Assembly (NCBI GenBank): GCA_027063305.1
Contig: JAMORY010000011.1
Span: 1 to 64,000, forward strand
Source of the DNA: Sulfurovum sp.
Lineage (GTDB): Bacteria; Campylobacterota; Campylobacteria; Campylobacterales; Sulfurovaceae
Direction: 5' to 3'
DNA: 64,000 nt
The position numbers and the translations under genes are program-made. The notes under the pieces are model-generated. The model saw only the letters and a list, made by a program, of their open reading frames with translations, searched no databases and was not told where the DNA came from. Numbering within the stretch: the first letter of the stretch is position 1; the number at the start of each line of letters is the position of its first letter. Shown piece after piece: positions 7,053 to 48,749 of this stretch.

Positions 7053-7074
7053 AAGGGTATATACTAGCACCCTT
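7053..7074. terminator. Stem-loop between convergent genes
   Basis: AAGGGT and ACCCTT can pair around a 10-base loop, with A-rich and T-rich flanks on the two sides. It lies in the 16-base gap between the GGDEF-EAL gene and the GAF hybrid kinase and overlaps the end of the latter. A short bidirectional terminator is likely, though the stem is only 6 bp. Confidence 0.4.
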
Positions 7075-9109
7075 CTTCCAACACCTCTTTGATCCTCTTT
7101 TTGCTGAACGGTTTGCCTATGCGGCTATTAAAGAGTCCCTTTTCTTGCTCTTGTGTAACGTCTCCTGAGATCGAAACCGCAAAGAGTGGTTTTGTTTTTT
7201 TCGCTCTCTCATGTCTTCGAAAGGCTTGAAGTACTTCCGTACCTGTAAGTTTTGGCATATGCTGATCTAGGAATGCAAGGGTATATGGACTCTGAGTATC
7301 TAGTGCATGCTTAAGTAGACCAAGTGCTTCTTCTCCATCCTTGGCAGTATCTATTTGGTAGAACTCTTCGGAAAGGATCGCTTTGATAAGCTCAACATTG
7401 ATCCTGTCATCATCTACGATCAATACACGCTTGGGAGTATTGACCGATATGAACTTATAGAGTTCGGGTGCATAGTAGGTATATTGGGAGATGATCGAGA
7501 TGTTATCGCTTATGATACTGCTGTTCATCGAAAGGAACGATCTCTCTATGACGATCACGGGAATTTGTCTCTGTTGATGATATGTCAGAGTCTGCTCTTT
7601 CCATAGCTTTTCAAAACATATTAGATGTGTAAGATCCGAGGTAGGCTGTTTCCCTTTCATAAGAATGGAGAGGTTCTCTTTTTTTAAACCGAACTTTGAG
7701 AGATATCTCAAAATATTCTTACTGCTTTCAACATCTTCTCTATCCATCATGATACCAAGTTTGATATGTGCTGTTTGAGATGGCTTGAACATCGGTGTCA
7801 TTTGAGAGACCTCTACGGGTATGGTGAAGTAGAAACTACTTCCTTTATCCAGTTCACTTTTAAGTTTAAGCTCTCCACCTAGTTTTTTCACATAGTCTGC
7901 ACAGATACTTAACCCAAGTCCTGTACCTCCGTAAGTAGCTTTCGTCTCTTCTTCTGCCTGTGTAAATGCTTGAAATATCTCGGACTGTTTCTCTTTTGCG
8001 ATACCTATACCCGTATCGGTCACACTAATAGAAAGCTGATGGTTCATAGCGATATATTTAACCATGAAGTTGACACTTTTTTGGCTTGGTGTGAATTTAT
8101 AGGCATTATTAAGAAGGTTCATTAATACACGTTTTAGTAAGGTGGTATCTAAAAGTACCTCTTTAGGAATGAACGGGTCGATATAGATATTATACTGGAT
8201 GGATTTACTGCTCATATTGGCAGAGAAACCTTCTGCAATATCGGCAAAGAACTTTGTTGGACTGACCTGTTGTGGCTTGGATACCTGTTGCTCTTTTGGG
8301 GATGAGAGATTATCCAGAATGGATGTTGTCAGTTCATTGATGAACTGTGCACTCTCTTTGGCATTTTTGACATATTGCAAGATACGTGGATCATCGAGTT
8401 TTTCTTCAAGAAGTTCAAGGAACCCATGGAGTGTATTTGCAGGTGTTCGAATATCATGTACCGTATTGGCCAAAAAACCGATCATTGAGTCTGGGGCTAT
8501 CTCTACGGGTGCTTGCCGGATCTTCTCCGCTCGTTCTACGATCTGCTCGGAAGCGATACGTAAGGGTCTTTCATGCGCAACACTTTTAGGAAGGATACGC
8601 TGTTTTTCCGGATACATCTGGTAGATCACTTTGCTTAGGAATGGAACTATTGCCTGAAGCAGTTCCATATCTTCTTGATCGAAGTTCTTGATCTTTTTAA
8701 CCGATGCATAGGCAGTGACCATTCCCAAGAATTGATCTTGATCGATAATAGGAACGATCAATTGTGATTTTATTTTGATATTGTCGGGATTATCAACCTC
8801 GGGAACATACCCTTTTTCACTGGCGATATAGTTGTATATCCCACTGCTTAGAGTAAAAAAACACTTTGCCAAGATCCCTTTTTGTCCCAGCATTGAGAGT
8901 TCTTTCAGTGTATTGTCGTCACGCTCTCTTCTAAGCGTGGCGCTCTCTTGATGAAAGATCCATAAAGAAGCGAACTCGGTACCGGTAACCTCTTTGATCA
9001 GTGCTTCTACGATCTGGTTGATCTTTGTTCTGTCCTGTTCATGCTCAAGTTGATTTGTTATATTGCTTAAAAGTCTTTTCAGGTCTTTAATATCCAGTTT
9101 TTCATGCAT
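7064..9109 (-). CDS. Hybrid histidine kinase, GAF-HisKA-HATPase-pseudoreceiver-REC
   Basis: Soluble hybrid kinase of 681 residues from the ATG at 9109, chosen because AGGA lies about 9 bases upstream; the frame stays open to 9220. A GAF-like sensor domain (about 30-165) precedes HisKA with H218 in the box NTVHDIRTPAN. The HATPase has NLLNNAYKFTP, DTGIGI and GGTGLGLSI. Next comes a receiver-sized segment (about 450-550) with no recognisable phospho-Asp (ICFEKLW at the expected strand), probably a pseudo-receiver. A true receiver ends the protein, with VLIVDDD and the acceptor Asp in LAFLDQHMP. It points away from the PAS and LC7 genes and shares their 151-base divergent promoter region. Confidence 0.88.
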   Translation of the reverse strand: MHEKLDIKDLKRLLSNITNQLEHEQDRTKINQIVEALIKEVTGTEFASLWIFHQESATLRRERDDNTLKELSMLGQKGILAKCFFTLSSGIYNYIASEKGYVPEVDNPDNIKIKSQLIVPIIDQDQFLGMVTAYASVKKIKNFDQEDMELLQAIVPFLSKVIYQMYPEKQRILPKSVAHERPLRIASEQIVERAEKIRQAPVEIAPDSMIGFLANTVHDIRTPANTLHGFLELLEEKLDDPRILQYVKNAKESAQFINELTTSILDNLSSPKEQQVSKPQQVSPTKFFADIAEGFSANMSSKSIQYNIYIDPFIPKEVLLDTTLLKRVLMNLLNNAYKFTPSQKSVNFMVKYIAMNHQLSISVTDTGIGIAKEKQSEIFQAFTQAEEETKATYGGTGLGLSICADYVKKLGGELKLKSELDKGSSFYFTIPVEVSQMTPMFKPSQTAHIKLGIMMDREDVESSKNILRYLSKFGLKKENLSILMKGKQPTSDLTHLICFEKLWKEQTLTYHQQRQIPVIVIERSFLSMNSSIISDNISIISQYTYYAPELYKFISVNTPKRVLIVDDDRINVELIKAILSEEFYQIDTAKDGEEALGLLKHALDTQSPYTLAFLDQHMPKLTGTEVLQAFRRHERAKKTKPLFAVSISGDVTQEQEKGLFNSRIGKPFSKKRIKEVLEEGC

Positions 9110-9260
9110 TGTTGATATTCCTATCGATTTATGGTTGGGTGAATTATAATGAAATGGCTCCAAAAAATATGTAGGATAAATCCTACAGACAATTTTTATC
9201 TTTTGAGATAAAATACGCATAACAATTTAATATGAAGAAAATATGAAGGAGCATAAGATC

Positions 9261-9782
9261 ATGCAACGATCTGAACCAACAGATATTGAACGTGAGGTAA
9301 GTAGTGTGGATATGATCGTATCCAAAGGAGATGCAGAGGGGAATATTACCTACACTAACCCGATCTTTATGAAGATCTCAGGGTATACACAAGGGGAACT
9401 ATTGGATAAACCGCACGCTATTTTAAGGCATCCGGATATGCCAAAGGTGATATTTAAATATCTTTGGGAGAACCTACAAGCAGGAAAAGAGGTAATAGCT
9501 TATGTAAAGAATCTCTGTAAAGACGGAAGTTACTACTGGGTAATTGCTCAGGTACGTGTGGCAAAGAACCCTGACGGTTCATTTAGAAACTATGTCTCTA
9601 CAAGAAGATGTATCACACAAAGTGCGAAAGAGAAGATATCTGCACTTTATGCCTCTTTAATAGAGATAGAGTCTGCTAAAGGGATCGAGGCTTCGGAAAA
9701 AGCACTGGAGGCATTTTTGGTAGAGAATGGACACACATTTGAGACATTCAATACGTGTATGACACAACTTAACACAAAATAA
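9261..9782 (+). CDS. CetB/Aer-type PAS domain protein
   Basis: A 173-residue single-PAS protein. The segment from IVSKGD through the ITYTNP, KISGYTQGEL, RHPDMP and YYWV motifs is the Aer/CetB class of PAS, which in characterised members binds FAD and reports redox or energy state. Campylobacter CetB has this size and works with a separate membrane partner, CetA; no CetA-like gene lies in this window. I prefer the ATG at 9261 because AAGGAG is 9 bases upstream; another ATG at 9243 is in frame. The C-terminal 50 residues are helical and may bind a partner. It is 19 bases before the LC7-like gene, suggesting one operon. Confidence 0.85.
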   Translation: MQRSEPTDIEREVSSVDMIVSKGDAEGNITYTNPIFMKISGYTQGELLDKPHAILRHPDMPKVIFKYLWENLQAGKEVIAYVKNLCKDGSYYWVIAQVRVAKNPDGSFRNYVSTRRCITQSAKEKISALYASLIEIESAKGIEASEKALEAFLVENGHTFETFNTCMTQLNTK

Positions 9783-9801
9783 ACACTAGGAGAATATAAT
9801 C

Positions 9802-10191
9802 ATGATCGATTTTAATAATGCAATGAAAAGGCTTAGGGCCGTTAACGGATATTTGGGATCTGCGGTATTGAACTACTCAGGAGAGACACTCTATATCGAT
9901 AATGAGAATACGGGGACAGATATCCCATACTCTGCGAGTATCTTCAACGATGCCTACAGAATGGTTTCAGAATCCTCTCTGGATGTCGGTTTTTCCGAGG
10001 CATCATCATTGGAGGCAAAAACACTCGATGGTCATGTCTTTTTGATCAACAGTGCCGGTGCATACGCTGAGGATCAGTTCGTGAAGATCAACGTATTTGC
10101 GATCTTTAGAGATGATGGAAATGTCGCATTGGCAAAGATGATCATGGATAAAGCATCGAAAATGATGTCTGACGAGTTGGGAAAACTCTAA
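9802..10191 (+). CDS. Roadblock/LC7-like protein
   Basis: A 129-residue soluble protein whose pattern fits the Roadblock/LC7 fold: a first helix (MKRLRAVNGYLG), a strand pair ending in GETLYID, a central helix (IFNDAYRMVSES), strands through DGHVFLINSAG, and a last helix with AKMIMDKASKMM. In bacteria this fold (MglB is the model) forms dimers that regulate Ras/Rab-like GTPases. A Rab-like GTPase lies 3.5 kb downstream in the same island, which strengthens the call. The assignment rests on fold pattern, not on diagnostic residues, so it is moderate. It sits between the PAS gene and the SixA-like gene, all on one strand with short gaps. Confidence 0.6.
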   Translation: MIDFNNAMKRLRAVNGYLGSAVLNYSGETLYIDNENTGTDIPYSASIFNDAYRMVSESSLDVGFSEASSLEAKTLDGHVFLINSAGAYAEDQFVKINVFAIFRDDGNVALAKMIMDKASKMMSDELGKL

Positions 10192-10213
10192 GAAAATTTA
10201 AAAAGGTGTTCTC

Positions 10214-10747
10214 ATCAAAACGTTATATTTTATCAGACATGCGAAGTCGAACTGGCAGGATGAAGGTGCCAGTGACTTCGAACGAGGTATCACTAAAAAA
10301 GGTAAAAAGAGTATTGAGACGATTGCTTCTTATCTGAAGCTTCGTGGTGTTATGCCAGATCGCATACTCTCAAGTTGTGCATCACGGGCACAGGAGAGTG
10401 CGGATAAGATCGCAAAGATCCTCTCATATGAGGGGCGTATCGAATATTTGCAAGAGTTGTACTATACACCTACGGAGGTTATGCATGAGATCCTTCTTAT
10501 GCAAGATGATGCAGACGATACGATCTTTGTGATCGGACATAATCCTCAATTGACCGATATGGTGAACCTATTGGTAGATGATCATGTAGCAAAAATTCCT
10601 ACTATGGGGGTAGTGGCGATCAATTTTGATATTGAGCACTGGAGTGAATTGTCGTATATTCGGGGGGAGTTGGATTTTTTTATTTATCCTAAACAGTTCA
10701 AGTATTATATTCCTAAACAGATCAGGGCGATTTTAGAACGTACCTAA
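10214..10747 (+). CDS. SixA-like phosphohistidine phosphatase, probable ATC start
   Basis: A histidine phosphatase of 177 residues. The catalytic RHAKSNW motif opens the protein, and GHNPQ supplies the second active-site histidine. SixA removes phosphate from HPt domains of hybrid kinases, and an HPt gene lies 2.5 kb downstream. The reading frame has a stop at 10199-10201 and contains no ATG, GTG or TTG before the RHAK motif. An ATC at 10214, preceded by AAGG, falls exactly where the family starts (M-KTLYFIRHAKS). The first ATG, at 10352, would remove the catalytic histidine. I therefore annotate an ATC start; an error in the base at 10216 is the alternative. Confidence 0.82.
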   Translation: MKTLYFIRHAKSNWQDEGASDFERGITKKGKKSIETIASYLKLRGVMPDRILSSCASRAQESADKIAKILSYEGRIEYLQELYYTPTEVMHEILLMQDDADDTIFVIGHNPQLTDMVNLLVDDHVAKIPTMGVVAINFDIEHWSELSYIRGELDFFIYPKQFKYYIPKQIRAILERT

Positions 10748-10866
10748 AAATATAAAATCATATACTTTTCTTATCCTAAAATGATATAATATCAATAGGT
10801 ACAGTATGTAAAAGTCTTGTATGAGGGGTGAATATATTTATTAAAAGGCAAAAGAAGGAGAATATT

Positions 10867-12471
10867 TTGTCTCAAAAAACAGTTGAGGAGTTATTGTCTG
10901 TTGATGGAGAACTTAGTCTACTTTATGTAGAAGACAATAAAGATGTACGTGATAGTATGGTGGAGTTGCTCGAACATTACTGTAGCGACTTCGATGTTGC
11001 AGTGGATGGACAGGAAGCATGGGAGAAGTACCAGTCTTACCATAAAAAGACGGGGCATTATTACGATATCGTTCTAACCGATATCAATATGCCGAAAATG
11101 AGTGGTATTCAACTTATCGAGAAGATCCGTGAACGGAATGAGCGTCAGATCATTGTGGTGATCTCTGCGCATAATGAGCTTGACATGCTTTTAAAGCTGA
11201 TCGAACTGGAGATCTCGAATTTCATCGTGAAACCTTTGGAGATGGATCAGTTCGAAAGGGTCTTTGCCCGTGTGATCAATATTGTTCACCAACGGCGGAC
11301 CTATTACCGCTTGAATGAAGATCTACAAAGAACAAAGATGCTTGCAGAACAGGCTACACAGTATAAAAGTCAGTTTCTGGCAAATATGTCACATGAGATA
11401 CGTACTCCACTCAATGCGATCATCGGATTTATCTCACTTCTTCGTGAACGAGAGGATGATGAGACAAAGATGAAGTATTTGGATATCATTATGAACTCAT
11501 CGGACTCACTCCTCCAACTGATCAATGATATTCTTGATGTGAGTAAGATCGAAAGCGGTAAGCTTGAGATCGAACCGCAGAACTTCAATCCATATAAGGA
11601 TCTTATTACGGTTGCAGAACTTTTCCAGGCCAAAGCGGCGGAGAAGGATATCGTGCTTACGATCAAATACAACAACTCCATACCTGAACTACTATATGGA
11701 GACTCATTACGTATCAAACAGATCTTCTCCAATCTTCTTTCCAATGCCATTAAGTTCACACCTGAAGGCTCCAAGGTCAAGTGTGTCATCTGGTATAAAG
11801 ACGGCAATCTCAATATCATGGTCAAAGATTACGGGATCGGTATCAGTAAAGAACAGCAGCAGAAGATATTCCAGCCCTTTACCCAAGCGGATGGTTCGAT
11901 CGTGCGTAAGTATGGCGGTACGGGACTGGGCTTGACTATCAGTATGGAGCTTAGCAGGCTCTTAGGCGGTGAGTTGACACTAAAGAGTGAAGAAGGAAAA
12001 GGAAGTGTTTTCCGTCTGAGTCTGCCTATTCCTTTAGGAAAAGAGGAGAAAGAGGAAGAAGAGGAGAGTATCGAGAAGTTAGAGGGGCATGTTCTGGTGG
12101 TTGAAGATTATGAAGCGAACCGCATGTTCGTTGGGATCATTCTTGAAAATGCCGGTTTGACGTATGATATTGCACATGATGGAGTAGAAGCGATCAAAAA
12201 GTTCAAAGAGAACAAGTATGATCTTATCTTAATGGATGAGAATATGCCGAACCTCAATGGGACCGAGGCGACCAAAGAGATCTTGCGTCTTGAAAAGGAG
12301 CAAGGGCTTTCACATACACCCATCGTCTCCCTTACGGCCAATGCCCTAAAAGGTGACCGTGAACTCTTCCTTGCATCAGGGTTCGATGATTATCTAAGTA
12401 AACCGATCGATCCTCAGAAGCTTCTTAAGACAATGAAGCGTCTGTTGAACTCCTGTCCCCTACCTAGCTAG
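10867..12471 (+). CDS. Hybrid sensor histidine kinase, REC-HisKA-HATPase-REC
   Basis: A 534-residue soluble hybrid kinase, paralog of the one at 782-2392 with the same domain order. Receiver 1 carries D72 in VLTDINMP. HisKA has H176 in NMSHEIRTPLNA. The HATPase shows NLLSNAIKFTP, DYGIGIS and GGTGLGLTI. The C-terminal receiver has LVVEDYE and LILMDENMP. I chose the TTG at 10867: AAGGAG lies 6 bases upstream and the resulting N terminus lines up with the paralog. A GTG at 10828 is in frame but would add 13 residues that the paralog lacks. It converges on the NarL-type regulator with an 8-base overlap and is followed by an HPt gene, the natural acceptor for its second receiver. Confidence 0.9.
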   Translation: MSQKTVEELLSVDGELSLLYVEDNKDVRDSMVELLEHYCSDFDVAVDGQEAWEKYQSYHKKTGHYYDIVLTDINMPKMSGIQLIEKIRERNERQIIVVISAHNELDMLLKLIELEISNFIVKPLEMDQFERVFARVINIVHQRRTYYRLNEDLQRTKMLAEQATQYKSQFLANMSHEIRTPLNAIIGFISLLREREDDETKMKYLDIIMNSSDSLLQLINDILDVSKIESGKLEIEPQNFNPYKDLITVAELFQAKAAEKDIVLTIKYNNSIPELLYGDSLRIKQIFSNLLSNAIKFTPEGSKVKCVIWYKDGNLNIMVKDYGIGISKEQQQKIFQPFTQADGSIVRKYGGTGLGLTISMELSRLLGGELTLKSEEGKGSVFRLSLPIPLGKEEKEEEEESIEKLEGHVLVVEDYEANRMFVGIILENAGLTYDIAHDGVEAIKKFKENKYDLILMDENMPNLNGTEATKEILRLEKEQGLSHTPIVSLTANALKGDRELFLASGFDDYLSKPIDPQKLLKTMKRLLNSCPLPS

Positions 12472-13096
12472 TTTGCCGTAATTCAAATGCAAACTGAATA
12501 AGCTGCGCGCTATTTTCTAAGTGCAGCTTCTCCAAGATACGTGTACGATAGGTAGAGACGGTCTTGGGGCTTAACGATAGCTTTTTTGCGATCTCTTGAA
12601 ACGTCAATCCGTCCGAGAGTAGTGTCAGGACCTCCAACTCTCGTTGCGAAAGTGTCGAGAGAAGGTCTTGGGCTGAAGCTTCAAGAGAAAAACCAAACGG
12701 TAGGCTCTCTTGTAGGGTTTGACTGACATATTTTCTTCCTGCCATTATCTCTTCTATGGCACGGATCACTTCATTACTGAGTATGGTTTTGTTAAGATAG
12801 CCAGATGCACCTGCTTTAAATGCCCGTATTGCATAGATCTCTTCAGGATATGCACTGAGTATGAGGATCGGAAGTTCAGGTAAGATCCCTTTGATCTTTT
12901 TGATCGAATCTAAACCATTACTGTCTCCAAGGTTAAGGTCGAGGACAAGCAGATCTATGGAAGTTGTATCCAATGCTTTCATAAGTGCTACAAGTGAGGA
13001 TGCAGAGATAACTACTTTCATCTTGTGAGATTCGATGATCATACTTAATCCGCTACGGACGATCTCATGATCATCGGCTAAACCTATCTTGAACAT
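12464..13096 (-). CDS. NarL/FixJ-type response regulator
   Basis: A DNA-binding response regulator of 210 residues. The N-terminal receiver has DDHEIVRSG and phosphoacceptor D53 in LVLDLNLGD. The C-terminal LuxR-type helix-turn-helix spans about 145-205 (LSQRELEVL, SPKTVSTY). It is the only transcription factor of the signalling island, and so the likely output of its phosphorelay. It overlaps the end of the hybrid kinase by 8 bases tail to tail, so it is transcribed from its own promoter in the 157-base gap it shares with the HPt gene. Target genes cannot be read from the sequence. Confidence 0.93.
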   Translation of the reverse strand: MFKIGLADDHEIVRSGLSMIIESHKMKVVISASSLVALMKALDTTSIDLLVLDLNLGDSNGLDSIKKIKGILPELPILILSAYPEEIYAIRAFKAGASGYLNKTILSNEVIRAIEEIMAGRKYVSQTLQESLPFGFSLEASAQDLLSTLSQRELEVLTLLSDGLTFQEIAKKLSLSPKTVSTYRTRILEKLHLENSAQLIQFAFELRQTS

Positions 13097-13253
13097 CGTT
13101 CCTCCCTAAAAACTTATATCTTTCACTATACATTATTTATTCTTTAAGGATACTGTGAGTGAATTGAAGTAATAATTACAGACAGTGTTATGCTGTTTAT
13201 TTGTTATTATGTAGACAATATCTAGCAAACAAGCTCTTAAGAAGGCAGAGACA

Positions 13254-13568
13254 ATGGAAGAATTAATTGAAGAGACAAAACGTATCGCACAGGCGCGATT
13301 TCAAACATTTGGGTTCGGTGAGGCTCAGATTGAACAGCTATTGGCGTCGGGGGAGAGAGATCTAAAAAAGGAGCTTGAGCATTTAAGAGAGCTTCTTATG
13401 CAAGAACCATGTGATCTTGATGCGATCAATCGGTCATTACATGCGCTTAAAGGTTTGGTGTTAAATATGGGAAATGATGATGCGGCAGAGAAACTTTCGG
13501 AGTTGAGGGGCTCTGAAGATCCTCAAGAGAAGATAGAAACGCTCAAAAGGTTGACACATATCGCATAA
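13254..13568 (+). CDS. HPt (histidine phosphotransfer) domain protein
   Basis: A small helical protein of 104 residues. The segment SLHALKGLVLNMG matches the HPt signature HxxKG, with H63 as phosphoacceptor and K66/G67 in place; the following helix AAEKLSELRG is also typical. HPt proteins carry phosphate from the C-terminal receiver of a hybrid kinase to a response regulator. Three hybrid kinases and two separate regulators lie within 13 kb. It is 77 bases upstream of the Rab-like GTPase on the same strand. AAGAAGG precedes the ATG. The length suits a single HPt with a short N-terminal helix. Confidence 0.8.
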   Translation: MEELIEETKRIAQARFQTFGFGEAQIEQLLASGERDLKKELEHLRELLMQEPCDLDAINRSLHALKGLVLNMGNDDAAEKLSELRGSEDPQEKIETLKRLTHIA

Positions 13569-13645
13569 AACTGATAGAATTCCAAGATAATTGCCGATAA
13601 AGGCATATAATTGTACTATAATTGATATACTCATGAAGGGTAGTA

Positions 13646-14155
13646 ATGATTTCAAGAAAGATTGTTTTAGTCGGGGATTTCTCAACGGGTAAAACAAGTT
13701 TGATCCGGCGTTTTGTCGATAACCAGTTCAGTGACAGTTATTTAAGCACGATCGGTGTGAAAATATCTAAAAAACAGATCCCTCTTAAAGAGGAAGTGAT
13801 ACAAGCACTGATCTGGGATATTGAGGGGGGTACACCTAATAAACCGGTCAACACGACATATCTTCTTGGTGCACACGGATGTATTTTGGTGGCAGATAGT
13901 ACCCGTGAAGAGACTATTGAGAATATAGATGGTTATCTTGATATTGTTAAGAAGTGTGCACCTAAGTCGGCATTTATTTTAGTGTTGAACAAGTGCGATA
14001 TGTTAAATGAGATCGAGAAAGAGTTGCTCTATAAAGGGGTTGGAGAACGTTTTAAAGACCGGATAGAACATATCTATCTCGCTTCGGCAAAAACAGGTGA
14101 AGAGGTAGAGACGATGTTTAGAGCGATCGCTACCTTGGTAAGTCCAAAAGGCTAA
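13646..14155 (+). CDS. Rab-like small GTPase
   Basis: A Ras-superfamily GTPase of 169 residues with eukaryote-like features. G1 is GDFSTGKT (10-17), G2 is the threonine of STIGV (T35), G3 is DIEGG (58-62), G4 is NKCD (115-118) and G5 is SAK (147-149). SYLSTIG and the later LLGAHGCILV resemble Rab proteins closely. G3 departs from the usual DxxGQ: the catalytic glutamine is replaced by glycine, so intrinsic hydrolysis may be slow or need a partner. There is no lipidation cysteine motif. The stop is 2 bases from the next kinase start, implying translational coupling, and the HPt gene is just upstream. An LC7-like protein at 9.8 kb is a candidate regulator. Confidence 0.88.
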   Translation: MISRKIVLVGDFSTGKTSLIRRFVDNQFSDSYLSTIGVKISKKQIPLKEEVIQALIWDIEGGTPNKPVNTTYLLGAHGCILVADSTREETIENIDGYLDIVKKCAPKSAFILVLNKCDMLNEIEKELLYKGVGERFKDRIEHIYLASAKTGEEVETMFRAIATLVSPKG

Positions 14156-14157
14156 AG

Positions 14158-15354
14158 ATGCATATTCAAGAAGTATTTAATGCGATCTATGCCAACCATC
14201 TTTATGAATATCTGGTTATCGATGAATCTCGTAAGATCATTGAGTATTCCGATAAGGCATTCTCTTTATGTTTGAACCGTCCGGAGAACTGTAAAGAGAT
14301 GATCTTAGAAGAGGTTCTTCCTGAACTATGCGGTTTGGAAGAAGAGATAGAAAGGGTCTTTTCCGGAGATTCTTCCTCATTTACTCTCCCTTATATCTTT
14401 AAGGAACCTGATACCTATGTACATATTCATATCCATCCCGGACGTGAGAAGCAAGTATCCAAACCCGAAGAGAACCGTTATGAGAGCGTTATCATTCTTT
14501 TTGAAAATATCTCTGAGATCGCTACGGCACAACAAAGTTTGATCCAAGAGAGAAATGAAAAAGCGCTTTTGGTTAAAGAGGTTTCCCAAAAGAACATACT
14601 GCTCAAGCGTTTCAATGCACAAATGCAAGAGTTGGTGGATGAAGAGATACGAAAGAATATGGAAAAACAGCGTATCGTAGAACTTCAATCCCGCTATTCC
14701 CAGATGGGAGAGATCATCAGCATGATCATTCACCAATGGAAACAGCCTCTCAATGCTATGAGTATTATTGTCAATGTTCTCAAATTGAACTTGATGAAAA
14801 ATACGCTCTCTCCAAATGAGATCAAGAATAAGCTTGACGATATCCTCTCTCAGATCAAATATATGGATCAGACGGTCAAGGATTTTCAGAACTTTTTCAA
14901 TCCCTCGAAAGAACAGATACGCTTTAAAGCATATAATGTGATCCAAACGGTATTTGACCTTGTAGGATATACCTATGAGCATAAAAATATCTCATTGGAA
15001 TTAGAAGGTGATAAAGAGGTCAGTATTGTTGGCCATCCCAATGAGTTCAGTCAGGTCATATTGACACTGCTTCAAAATGCAAAAGATGCCTTTATGGAAC
15101 ACCCTAGAGAGGATATGCGTATTGTTGTACGTATTGAGAAAGAGAAAGACCATGCAGTTATTATCGTAAGGGATAATGCCGGTGGTATTCCCGAAGAGAT
15201 TATCGATAAGATATTCGATCTCTATATGACAACAAAAGAGCAGGGAACCGGTCTTGGACTCAATATTGCAAAACAGATGGTCGAGAAGAACATGAACGGT
15301 AGGCTCAGTGTACGTAATGTTGAAGAGGGTGCGGAGTTCAGGGTCTATATATGA
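14158..15354 (+). CDS. Soluble PAS-like sensor histidine kinase
   Basis: A 398-residue kinase without membrane segments. The N-terminal PAS-like domain (about 10-120) is followed by a long coiled coil (about 122-180). The H-box is MIIHQWKQPLNAM with phosphoacceptor H192, the Campylobacterota class. The HATPase has LLQNAKDAF, DNAGGIP and GTGLGLNIAK. The start lies 2 bases after the GTPase stop, so GTPase and kinase are almost certainly made together; the GTPase may gate the kinase or the reverse. The stop overlaps the start of a tiny membrane protein (ATGA). Confidence 0.9.
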   Translation: MHIQEVFNAIYANHLYEYLVIDESRKIIEYSDKAFSLCLNRPENCKEMILEEVLPELCGLEEEIERVFSGDSSSFTLPYIFKEPDTYVHIHIHPGREKQVSKPEENRYESVIILFENISEIATAQQSLIQERNEKALLVKEVSQKNILLKRFNAQMQELVDEEIRKNMEKQRIVELQSRYSQMGEIISMIIHQWKQPLNAMSIIVNVLKLNLMKNTLSPNEIKNKLDDILSQIKYMDQTVKDFQNFFNPSKEQIRFKAYNVIQTVFDLVGYTYEHKNISLELEGDKEVSIVGHPNEFSQVILTLLQNAKDAFMEHPREDMRIVVRIEKEKDHAVIIVRDNAGGIPEEIIDKIFDLYMTTKEQGTGLGLNIAKQMVEKNMNGRLSVRNVEEGAEFRVYI

Positions 15355-15509
15355 TAAAAAAACCGCTTTTGCTCTTTCTTCTTTCCTTGATTCTACTTAT
15401 CATCATCGCCGTAGTATACCAGCGCTACTGCAAGTCCAAACCAAACGGTTGTAAAAAGGTTGAACGTAGTGCCGATGAGAGCTATCCGCAAAAAGGGATA
15501 GACTGGTAA
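15351..15509 (+). CDS. Small single-span membrane protein
   Basis: A 52-residue protein whose ATG overlaps the kinase stop in an ATGA, a sign of translational coupling. Residues 5-23 are a strong hydrophobic helix rich in Leu and Ile, followed by a basic, cysteine-containing tail (two Cys, KSKPNG). It looks like a type I or II membrane anchor with a 28-residue soluble part. I recognise no family. Its position suggests it could tether the soluble kinase or GTPase to the membrane. Confidence 0.6.
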   Translation: MIKKPLLLFLLSLILLIIIAVVYQRYCKSKPNGCKKVERSADESYPQKGIDW

Positions 15510-45621: not shown

Positions 45622-46083
45622 ATGGCGACAGAGATAGAGCGTAAGTTCCTGGTCGATACCGCTAAGCTTCCACCACTGCCAAAGCCGCATATCATTAAAC
45701 AGGGCTATGTTCCGGCAAATGGTGTGACCGTACGGGTACGGCTCTATGATGATAACGCTTTTCTTACATTAAAAGGGCGTACTCAGGGAGTGAGCCGTTT
45801 GGAGTTCGAGTATCCTATTCCCGTTTCTGATGCGGAGGAGATGCTCAAAGCACTTTGTATGCAGCCTTTCATCGATAAAAAACGCTATGAGATCATCTAT
45901 GCGGGACACTGTTGGGAACTGGATATTTTCGAAGGGGAGAATCAGGGACTTGTCATTGCCGAGATAGAGCTCTCAAATGAGAACGAGTCGTTCGAAAAGC
46001 CCGAGTGGGTCACACAAGAGGTCTCCGCCGATCCCCGATACCGTAACGGGAACCTTGTTACCAAGCCTTACTCTCAGTGGTGA
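45622..46083 (+). CDS. CYTH domain protein
   Basis: A 153-residue tunnel-fold protein. The N-terminal signature EIERKF is intact, with further charged strands (VRVRLYD, LTLKGRT, EFEYPI, KRYEI) lining the expected triphosphate tunnel. Family members hydrolyse triphosphates or act as class IV adenylate cyclases; short bacterial ones are usually triphosphatases. The stop overlaps the convergent OmpA gene by 10 bases. Likely cotranscribed with murA. Confidence 0.88.
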   Translation: MATEIERKFLVDTAKLPPLPKPHIIKQGYVPANGVTVRVRLYDDNAFLTLKGRTQGVSRLEFEYPIPVSDAEEMLKALCMQPFIDKKRYEIIYAGHCWELDIFEGENQGLVIAEIELSNENESFEKPEWVTQEVSADPRYRNGNLVTKPYSQW

Positions 46084-48062
46084 CGTAAACGCGAAAGCGC
46101 TGCATTTATCTTCTTCTGATCGAGTTGAAAACTTAGCTCGATCCGTCTGGATGCCTCTTTATCCTCCACGCCGTTAATGATAACTGGATCTTGCTCTCCC
46201 ATTCCTTTGGCTACAAGAAAGCGTGAGAGTCCATGCTTCTTGGCGATCGGTAAAGAGAGGATATAGCGCTTGATCTCTTCTGCTCTTTGTGCGGAGAGGC
46301 GTTGGTTAAGGCTTTGGCTTCCCGAAGTATCGGTATAGCCTTTGATGATGATACGCTTGAGATATTGTCCGTTGTGTGTGGTATTGATGATCGTATCGAT
46401 ATAGGTACCGATATCCTCTTTGAGGCTCTCGATAAGTTCGGGGTTGGGGACAACGCTTCCCGCTTCAAACAGATTCTTACTTTGGATAGTAAGCGCACCG
46501 TTTTTAGGATTTGGTATCGCATTGTTGTAGTGCTGCCTTGTAACGGCAAGGATAAGGCGGGTACTCATACTACGCAGTGCATCGATCTTTGCTTGTGTTT
46601 TGGGATCGATACGGGGTTTGGAGAGTACTTTTTGTAGGCTCTTTACCATTTTTTCCATGCTTTGTGTCAGCTGTGCGATATGCGCTCTTTCGGCTTTGAG
46701 CTCGGTATTCAAGGCAGATTGTGAGGCTTCAAGCTTCTGCGTCTTTTTTTGAAGTGTATGGAGTGCCTGTTCGCTTTGTTGGAGGGTTTCGAGTTTGTGC
46801 TGCTGCATCTTAAACTTACGGCTGATCTCCTCTATTGGCATATAGAGTGCGTTGATGATGGGAAGATCGGTCTGTTTTTTCAGGATCGCCCGTACCTTGC
46901 CAAGGTGGTCGATCTCTCTAAGCTCCCCTTTAAGATAGAGCCTGCCGTCCTCTTCATGGAGTGATATCTTCTCCCCTGTACGCTGTTGAATACGCTTTTC
47001 CAATACATAATAGCCGTATTTTTCTTTTAGGAAGAGCCCTGCTCCCAGTGTTATCGTACCTATGAGCAAAGCGGCAACGATCTTGGAGGCATGACTCTCT
47101 TTATGCTTCTGTTTTTTCGTACCGTTGCTTTGGGTGTTGAGGAACTTGAGCAGTTCGGCTTCTACCTTGGCAATACGCGGGTCACTGTCATCCCCCTCGA
47201 ACTCTTGAAAAAGTGTACTGTAACGTTTAATGATCTGGGCAAAGAAGAGGTTGATCTCCTTACGCTGCTCATGATCGGGTTCGGAATCGAGGAATGCAAT
47301 GAGGTAGACCGAACCGGCACTCTCTATGTAGAGGGTCGCATCGCCGTAACTGAGCAGTTGTACCTCTTTGCTACCGCTTTCTGCTTGATTGCTGATCCAG
47401 TCGTTGACGAAGTCCTTGATAGCACTTGCCATGGAGGCGACCATATGCGGATCGTCGATCTCACTGTTCTCATTGTTCGCTTCGGCGATGAGGAGTCCCG
47501 TCTCTTTATGGATAATGAAGATGGACTCGATGGTCGCATCACTGCTCTCCTCAAGCAAGAGCTCTGTCTCGCTTACGCCGGTCAGTTTGGCTTTGACCTT
47601 CCGTTTGTAGCGCTCGACCGAGAGCCCCTGCTCGATCTTGTCGTTGATCTTCTCCATCATCTCCTTGATCGCCTGTGTGACGTACTTGGAGATCATCCCA
47701 CCCATGATCGGGTAGAGTGCATCGATCATCTTGTCCTTGTTCTCTGCGATCTCCTGTGCGATCGCCGGAGAGATGATGCTTCGAAGAGACTGCTCCAGCG
47801 CATGCGGATCGTGTGCGGCACTCTGGGTGATGATCTGTGCAAGATAGCGTGAGAGGATCGTAATGGTTTGGCTCTCTTTTTGTGCTAAACGTGCGAGTAA
47901 TAGGTCATCAAAGAGTGGTAGGAGTTTGGTTTTGATCGCCTCCTCATCGAGGGTCTCGAACTCAAGGTGTTCTACCTTTGATGCCAGTTTTTCAAGCAGA
48001 GCAAGCTCATCAGCAAGCAGAAGTTGCTTTAACTGATCGAGCTCAGAGTTACTTTGTTTCAG
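46074..48062 (-). CDS. OmpA/BON protein with N-terminal sensor-like domain, probable CTG start
   Basis: A 662-residue protein. The first ATG (47729) would cut 111 residues that are conserved in the family (DPHALEQSLRSI through the DALYPIMG motif). Upstream the frame stays open with no ATG, GTG or TTG. A CTG at 48062 with AGGAG 7 bases before it is the likely start. Regions: N-terminal helical part, a sensor-like domain (about 171-291, IFIIHKETGLLIAEA) of longin/Roadblock-like pattern, a membrane helix (about 326-345), a BON domain (about 361-411), a coiled coil and a C-terminal OmpA domain (GYTDTSGSQSLN, SRRIELSF). It overlaps the coiled-coil gene by 14 bases. Confidence 0.8.
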   Translation of the reverse strand: MKQSNSELDQLKQLLLADELALLEKLASKVEHLEFETLDEEAIKTKLLPLFDDLLLARLAQKESQTITILSRYLAQIITQSAAHDPHALEQSLRSIISPAIAQEIAENKDKMIDALYPIMGGMISKYVTQAIKEMMEKINDKIEQGLSVERYKRKVKAKLTGVSETELLLEESSDATIESIFIIHKETGLLIAEANNENSEIDDPHMVASMASAIKDFVNDWISNQAESGSKEVQLLSYGDATLYIESAGSVYLIAFLDSEPDHEQRKEINLFFAQIIKRYSTLFQEFEGDDSDPRIAKVEAELLKFLNTQSNGTKKQKHKESHASKIVAALLIGTITLGAGLFLKEKYGYYVLEKRIQQRTGEKISLHEEDGRLYLKGELREIDHLGKVRAILKKQTDLPIINALYMPIEEISRKFKMQQHKLETLQQSEQALHTLQKKTQKLEASQSALNTELKAERAHIAQLTQSMEKMVKSLQKVLSKPRIDPKTQAKIDALRSMSTRLILAVTRQHYNNAIPNPKNGALTIQSKNLFEAGSVVPNPELIESLKEDIGTYIDTIINTTHNGQYLKRIIIKGYTDTSGSQSLNQRLSAQRAEEIKRYILSLPIAKKHGLSRFLVAKGMGEQDPVIINGVEDKEASRRIELSFQLDQKKINAALSRLRHH

Positions 48063-48600
48063 GTTTTTGCTCCTGTGTCAAAAGGGTATTGACATCGGTA
48101 CCTTGTATCTTCATTGCCACTTCAAGCAGCATACCCGCCATCGCATCGCGAGAGAGCTTCTCTTCACCAAGGTCCGAGAGCCCTTTGTTCAATGCCGCTT
48201 CGATCTGGGATCTCATCTGAGAGAGATTGCGGTTCATCTTCTCGTTCTCGTCCTCGATGTTCTCTTTCATGATCTTCAGTTTGGTCAGGAACTCATTCTT
48301 TTGATTGGTCAGTTGTGTCTGAAGCGTCTCATCGGTCGTACCGATAAGCTCTTTGAGCTTGTTGCGCTCTTTCTGTGTCGCTGTTGCGAGGTTGTCTATT
48401 TTCTGCTCCAGTGCTTCAAGAGAGCGTTCAGTCTCTCTTTGGAGCTTGGTATGGGACTCTTTGAATGTCTGGAGCATCTTCTCCTCAACAGTGTGTAGTG
48501 TACGGTTGAGTGTTTCGAAACGTTCGTCGAACTCTTTAAGTTGCGAACCGAAAATTAAGTCTCTGATCTGATCTACATTGTTCATGTTCTTCTCTGCCAT
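48049..48600 (-). CDS. Coiled-coil protein upstream of the OmpA/BON gene
   Basis: A 183-residue protein, almost wholly helical. The opening QIRDLIFGSQLKEFDER resembles the N-terminal segment of cyanobacterial and proteobacterial OmpA-partner proteins. Residues about 30-130 are a long coiled coil, and the tail AMAGMLLEVAMKIQGTDV is a second helix pair. No membrane segment. I start at 48600, with AGGA 10 bases upstream; an ATG at 48621 has none. It overlaps the OmpA gene by 14 bases and probably binds its product. Confidence 0.78.
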   Translation of the reverse strand: MAEKNMNNVDQIRDLIFGSQLKEFDERFETLNRTLHTVEEKMLQTFKESHTKLQRETERSLEALEQKIDNLATATQKERNKLKELIGTTDETLQTQLTNQKNEFLTKLKIMKENIEDENEKMNRNLSQMRSQIEAALNKGLSDLGEEKLSRDAMAGMLLEVAMKIQGTDVNTLLTQEQKPETK

Positions 48601-48749
48601 GGTCGGTTTATCCTCATACATTAGATTTATACGATAATTATATACCCTTATGAAGCGTTATCTGCTTATTTTCAGTCAAATTTTAAGTAAAATCGCTATC
48701 TTTATGGAAAATTAAATACAAATATCATGTTTGTACGGGAGGAATATCC

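Follow-up and report, generated by a model that had tools for sequence, protein, structure and literature searches.

Among bacterial proteins, the Rup GTPases come nearest to eukaryotic Rab and Ras (PMC4316618). Group 1 Rups are recognized by their Rab-like G domain, which lacks the G3 glutamine, together with characteristic neighbors (Wuichet and Sogaard-Andersen 2014, PMC4316618). These neighbors are a coiled-coil protein; a protein in which a domain of unknown function is combined with a membrane helix and an OmpA end; and an output enzyme (a kinase or a cyclic di-GMP enzyme) whose N-terminal region carries an invariant glutamine. No Rup had been experimentally characterized as of that 2014 survey, in which the activating protein was listed as unknown. 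Small GTPases of the MglA family, which include the GTPase of the actinobacterial conservons (CvnABCD), form the other point of comparison (PMC4316618). Presented here is a Group 1 Rup system from a Sulfurovum sp. genome (GenBank assembly GCA_027063305.1; 2.03 Mb in 34 contigs), encoded within a window comprising the first 64,000 nucleotides (nt) of contig JAMORY010000011.1, which starts at the contig's first base. The reading preferred here, with a probability of roughly 0.65, is that the locus combines a phosphorelay with a separate, split Group 1 Rup circuit, in which the OmpA protein, carrying a predicted roadblock/longin domain, acts as the Rup regulator.

The window agrees with the published Group 1 Rups in its Rab-like GTPase without the G3 glutamine, its coiled-coil and OmpA proteins, and its output enzyme, here a kinase and in the published systems a kinase or c-di-GMP enzyme (PMC4316618). 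It differs in that the four genes, contiguous in most related loci, form two pairs on one contig with about 31 kb between them, and the Rup-kinase pair adjoins an HPt phosphorelay. The original prediction, made from the sequence of the window, held that no described system has this set of genes; this was half right, as the GTPase part had been published in 2014 as Group 1 Rup (PMC4316618). Myxococcus MglA/MglB likewise pairs a small GTPase with a roadblock-fold protein (here a predicted one), and MglB was among the best structural matches of the OmpA-protein domain. Unlike MglA, the window GTPase retains the G3 aspartate and groups with Rup, and the predicted roadblock domain is part of a membrane-spanning protein that probably binds peptidoglycan. 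A histidine kinase, a roadblock protein, and a small GTPase are also encoded together in conservons. The conservon GTPase, however, pairs with a separate MglB homologue, and the conservon includes CvnC, whereas the window GTPase is of the Rup type and no CvnC-like protein was recognized in the interval by Pfam and TIGR family scans.

The best PDB match of the GTPase was Sec4 (E = 1e-22), and its motifs (GDFSTGKTS in G1, WDIEGG in G3, NKCD, and SAK) fit the class of single-domain Ras/Rab-like proteins of 150 to 240 amino acids (aa). It was the one single-domain Ras-like GTPase found in the window genome. The catalytic glutamine was absent from WDIEGG and from the aligned single-domain rows. Asp58 of the same motif was invariant in the alignment, so that the replacement of this aspartate by threonine, which characterizes the MglA family (PMC3000849), was not seen. 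Across an alignment of output proteins, the glutamine of a Q..NE motif was conserved in 115 of 117 non-redundant rows, the window kinase included; it is assumed to be the same glutamine as that described in PMC4316618. In other cassettes the N-terminal domain of this kinase precedes GGDEF instead, and the output swaps between histidine kinase and GGDEF. There are 77 nt between HPt and Rup, 2 nt between Rup and kinase, and a 4-nt overlap between the kinase gene and that of a 52-aa protein. The earlier proposal that a kinase receives input from a small-GTPase circuit is supported.

When one genome from each of 84,980 species was scanned, Rup loci were recovered from Campylobacterota, from many Cyanobacteria, and from a single bin of Spirochaetia. 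Most of 80 such loci had a coiled coil and/or an OmpA domain upstream of the Rup and a Q..NE output downstream. In the window, the corresponding OmpA protein has a transmembrane (TM) segment at aa 216 to 234, numbered from the ATG, from which we infer that the N-terminal domain is cytoplasmic and the OmpA end a periplasmic anchor. The cytoplasmic domain (window 47160-47642; 41 sequences) was modeled by AlphaFold2 (AF2) with a predicted local distance difference test score (pLDDT) of 84.3 and a predicted template modeling score (pTM) of 0.71, in the order helix, two strands, helix, three strands, helix. Foldseek gave Myxococcus xanthus MglB, Ragulator subunits, and TRAPP as the best PDB matches (E about 1e-4, probability 1.0). 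In VIA-align, Z scores were 11.7 for Ragulator and Asgard roadblock proteins and 11.2 to 11.4 for MglB, at 2.5 to 2.7 Å over 104 to 108 residues. The domain is therefore predicted with good confidence to adopt a roadblock/longin fold, and because of this predicted fold it is the strongest candidate for the regulator that is missing from the description of Rup systems. A domain reported as of "unknown function" in 2014 (PMC4316618) is thereby given a predicted fold, and the searches made found no later open-access literature on Rup with OmpA.

Adjacency of Rup and HPt was limited to five Sulfurovum species (the window genome, G092, G116, G094, and L174), whose Rups share 60 to 68% identity with the window copy and sit within one clade of kinase-type Rups from Sulfurovum, whose branching order the tree did not resolve. 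G092, G116, and G094, the HPt-linked genomes tested besides that of the window, likewise have the OmpA orthologue elsewhere. At a minimum, the window genome (G000), G092, and G116 have a split cassette, because in each the OmpA gene lies elsewhere and a single Rup match was found.

From these observations a regulatory role and a direction of signaling can be proposed. The OmpA protein would grip peptidoglycan by its periplasmic end and present the roadblock/longin domain to the cytoplasm, where the domain would adjust the nucleotide state of Rup according to the envelope. Binding of Rup-GTP to the kinase's N-terminal Q..NE domain would then switch the output of the kinase. The HPt/NarL/SixA relay would operate alongside the Rup circuit, with SixA holding HPt-phosphate low. 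In addition to this scheme, the Rup kinase may communicate with HPt or NarL and so feed into the HPt relay, the sole evidence being adjacency in the five species. The evidence leans slightly toward the wider proposal that Group 1 Rups, so far regarded as lacking a roadblock partner, do have one, a conserved wall-anchored OmpA protein coupling the envelope through Rup to a kinase or diguanylate cyclase, and that the Sulfurovum version of this circuit was rewired next to an HPt phosphorelay. The predicted domain on the wall-anchored partner offers a concrete, testable candidate for the Rup regulator; if true, the pairing of small GTPase and roadblock protein known from MglA/MglB and Rag/Ragulator would extend to the Rup side of the family.

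Several results weigh against this reading. Sequence profiles (hhalign and a PDB profile search) gave no roadblock match for the OmpA-protein domain, and the fold is for that reason assigned from structure. The predicted fold also fits longin and adaptor-sigma proteins, and it does not distinguish roadblock from longin or a GTPase-activating protein (GAP) from a guanine nucleotide exchange factor (GEF) or a scaffold. No experimental biochemistry of any Rup was found in the literature, and a single clade or single origin of the HPt-linked Rups was not resolved by the tree. The LC7-like gene was moreover associated with Rup within Sulfurovum (11 genomes with both, 1 with Rup only, 2 with the LC7-like gene only, and 15 with neither; P = 2.4e-5, kinship ignored). 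Were the OmpA-protein domain a longin-type scaffold that places Rup or the kinase and leaves the nucleotide state of Rup unaltered, its VIA-align matches to longin proteins (Sec22b and the VAMP7 complex) and adaptor sigma/mu subunits (Z = 9.6 to 10.7) would be accounted for; the top matches, however, were roadblock proteins, including MglB bound to MglA, its GTPase, and this scaffold is considered unlikely. A possible, though doubtful, alternative is that the Rup-kinase pair came to lie beside HPt through neutral rearrangement and that the two circuits have no common signal. Clusters running from PAS to HPt without an adjoining Rup (G102, G108, G112, and G042) and the location of the OmpA partner elsewhere in HPt-linked genomes are consistent with such a rearrangement, whereas repetition of the adjacency in five species with diverged Rups argues against it.

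The original prediction had instead made the LC7-like protein the roadblock regulator, a GAP or scaffold, of the GTPase, the two together gating the relay. In its favor, both genes lie within about 6 kb and in the same order in the five Sulfurovum species, the family gives weak profile matches to roadblock, and the two genes are associated at genome level within Sulfurovum; the P value ignores kinship, so some room is left for a pairing of LC7-like protein and GTPase. Signaling richness was considered as a cause of this association and rejected, as counts of EAL genes were alike (8.1 versus 7.3, P = 0.75). Linkage spoke against the pairing. Among 120 Sulfurovaceae genomes, with up to 20 kb inspected around 60 loci, the LC7-like gene was present in 52 and the GTPase in 25; of the 19 genomes with both, just 5 had them within 10 kb and 14 had them unlinked, and in the single-contig genome G042 they were 195 kb apart. 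Another 18 genomes carried the LC7-like gene without a detectable single-domain Ras-like GTPase, their Ras-family matches being proteins of at least 300 aa or else short open frames (96 and 111 aa) that we take for fragments; MglA-type GTPases were searched solely via PF00071, which a divergent MglA could escape. Outside Sulfurovum the co-occurrence was not significant (P = 0.23), and of the 80 Rup loci the only ones with an LC7-like gene nearby were L172, L174, L177, and L178, each from Campylobacterota. Separation of the genes in related genomes, named beforehand as the outcome that would speak against such a regulator, is thus largely what was found. The Rup system, in addition, carries a roadblock-like domain of its own (predicted), and regulation of the GTPase by the LC7-like protein is judged improbable.

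Whether or not it acts on a GTPase, the LC7-like protein is a likely candidate for a roadblock fold. Of the Pfam families, Robl_LC7 matched the largest number of members of the wider LC7-like family, 4 of 30, all of them weakly (best E = 0.076), and a profile of its paralogues against PDB matched only two Asgard roadblock proteins (E = 0.31 and 0.43). The window protein itself had no Robl_LC7 match in Pfam, nor did a search of its own genome yield one, and AF2 gave a pLDDT of 41.8 from an alignment of just 5 close sequences. Comparison by hhalign with the true Robl_LC7 proteins of the phylum gave no support, with 3 comparison sequences only. Homology to the OmpA-protein domain was also considered and was rejected, hhalign again being without support, and no relatives were found in viral contigs. 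The three Robl_LC7 proteins (L128-L130) are the sole ones above the Pfam cut-off among 150 Campylobacterota genomes, and further small proteins adjoin them.

Features of the Rup system and of the neighboring phosphorelay in the window.
Feature	Coordinates	Strand	Basis or remark
GAF-HisKA-HATPase-REC hybrid kinase	7064..9220	-	Pfam; divergent from PAS gene; module A core
Single-PAS protein, CetB/Aer-like	9243..9782	+	PAS_3 E 4e-15
LC7-like protein, 129 aa	9802..10191	+	85-91% identity in nearest Sulfurovum
SixA-like phosphatase	10214..10747	+	Apparent ATC start; TIGR00249 under cut-off; catalytic residues present
REC-HisKA-HATPase-REC hybrid kinase	10828..12471	+	Pfam
NarL-type response regulator	12464..13096	-	REC + GerE
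HPt protein	13254..13568	+	Hpt E 7e-5, 23.4 vs 24.6 bits Pfam cut-off
Group 1 Rup (Rab-like) GTPase, 169 aa	13646..14155	+	Ras E 4e-29
Rup output kinase: N-terminal Q..NE domain, then HisKA-HATPase	14158..15354	+	Pfam
52-aa membrane protein, one hydrophobic segment	15351..15509	+	Overlaps kinase stop
Rup-system OmpA protein: cytoplasmic roadblock/longin domain (predicted), one TM, OmpA C-terminus	46074..48062	-	OmpA E 4e-12
Predicted roadblock/longin core of OmpA protein	47202..47540	-	AF2, Foldseek, VIA-align
Rup-system coiled-coil protein	48049..48621	-	Homologues upstream of OmpA-Rup in other cassettes; no Pfam family above cut-off

All nine genes named in the original prediction were located, roughly where it had put them, and most identities held; the SixA start was moved upstream of the first ATG, and NarL was found to lie on the minus strand. 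The set was also extended by the GAF hybrid kinase, which had been omitted. The GAF hybrid kinase, PAS, LC7-like, and SixA genes (module A) are a Sulfurovaceae unit that is also found without the GTPase. Scored over 32 loci of LC7-like orthologues, the neighbors were PAS in 31, the GAF hybrid kinase in 27, and SixA in 22, with HPt (9), a second hybrid kinase (9), NarL (7), and the GTPase (4) being rarer; L174 is a fifth case of linkage to the GTPase, additional to these 4. On the basis of these counts the LC7-like protein was assigned to the PAS/GAF-kinase/SixA unit and not to the GTPase. Gaps of 19 nt (PAS to LC7-like) and 22 nt (LC7-like to SixA) separate the genes. The SixA-like protein scored 65.1 bits against the TIGR00249 cut-off of 74.5, with the residues of RHA..R..E..H conserved. 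The PAS protein contains an RHPDMP motif, which we take to be that of Aer-type PAS domains (CetA/CetB and Aer redox taxis in Campylobacter and E. coli). In contrast to CetA/CetB, no receptor-like CetA partner was identified beside the PAS gene, whose neighbors encode the LC7-like protein, SixA, and the hybrid kinase.

Genes of the LC7-like family were also seen in other settings. Paralogues L126 and L127 lie beside GAF-type hybrid kinases, away from the PAS locus. At L120-L123 a PAS and LC7-like pair is followed by a leucine-rich-repeat protein, whose C-terminus resembles, by eye, the COR part of Roco proteins; a second LC7-like gene there is divergent. At L124:2850-6620 two LC7-like genes stand in tandem directly 5' of apparent TrkA-/TrkH-type potassium transport genes.

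The second hybrid kinase, the NarL regulator, and HPt are an extension of module A in part of Sulfurovum. The gene order from PAS to HPt was seen again in other Sulfurovum genomes, and the clustering thus exceeds chance. The phospho-accepting histidine motif of HPt (HxLKG) was present in all nine distinct aligned orthologues, as HALKG or, in two rows, as HAIKG. A phosphorelay at this locus, as originally proposed, is supported. Toward the start of the window, a kinase gene is truncated by the contig start (1-613), and another REC-HK-REC hybrid kinase (782-2392) resembles that at 10828-12471.

Non-AUG start codons were apparent in two of these genes. No ATG, GTG, or TTG start was found upstream of the RHAKS motif of SixA, and the window start is ATC at 10214-10216. 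Among 24 SixA orthologues at Sulfurovaceae LC7 loci, the codon at that position was ATC in 12, ATT in 8, ATA in 1, and ATG in 3, and the 21 with ATC, ATT, or ATA had a Shine-Dalgarno-like stretch upstream. The apparent non-AUG start was noted for L038-L049, L055-L058, L061, L065, L067, L111, and L114. Distant SixA genes in the phylum sample had ATG, once GTG, at that position. A non-AUG start appears to be conserved in LC7-linked SixA genes. In the OmpA gene, a CTG at 48060-48062 (minus strand) precedes the first ATG (47729) by about 111 conserved codons. In Sulfurovum-type cassettes (L071-L087, L176, L179, L193, and L250) the CTG lies in the +1 frame, 8, 11, or 14 nt ahead of the stop codon of the coiled-coil gene; it is invariant although the overlapped coiled-coil residues differ. 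Since CUG initiation or +1 frameshifting would account for the conserved CTG and the in-frame codons before the ATG, the CTG is likely the start of the OmpA gene or a +1 frameshift site. IF3 is encoded in the window genome.

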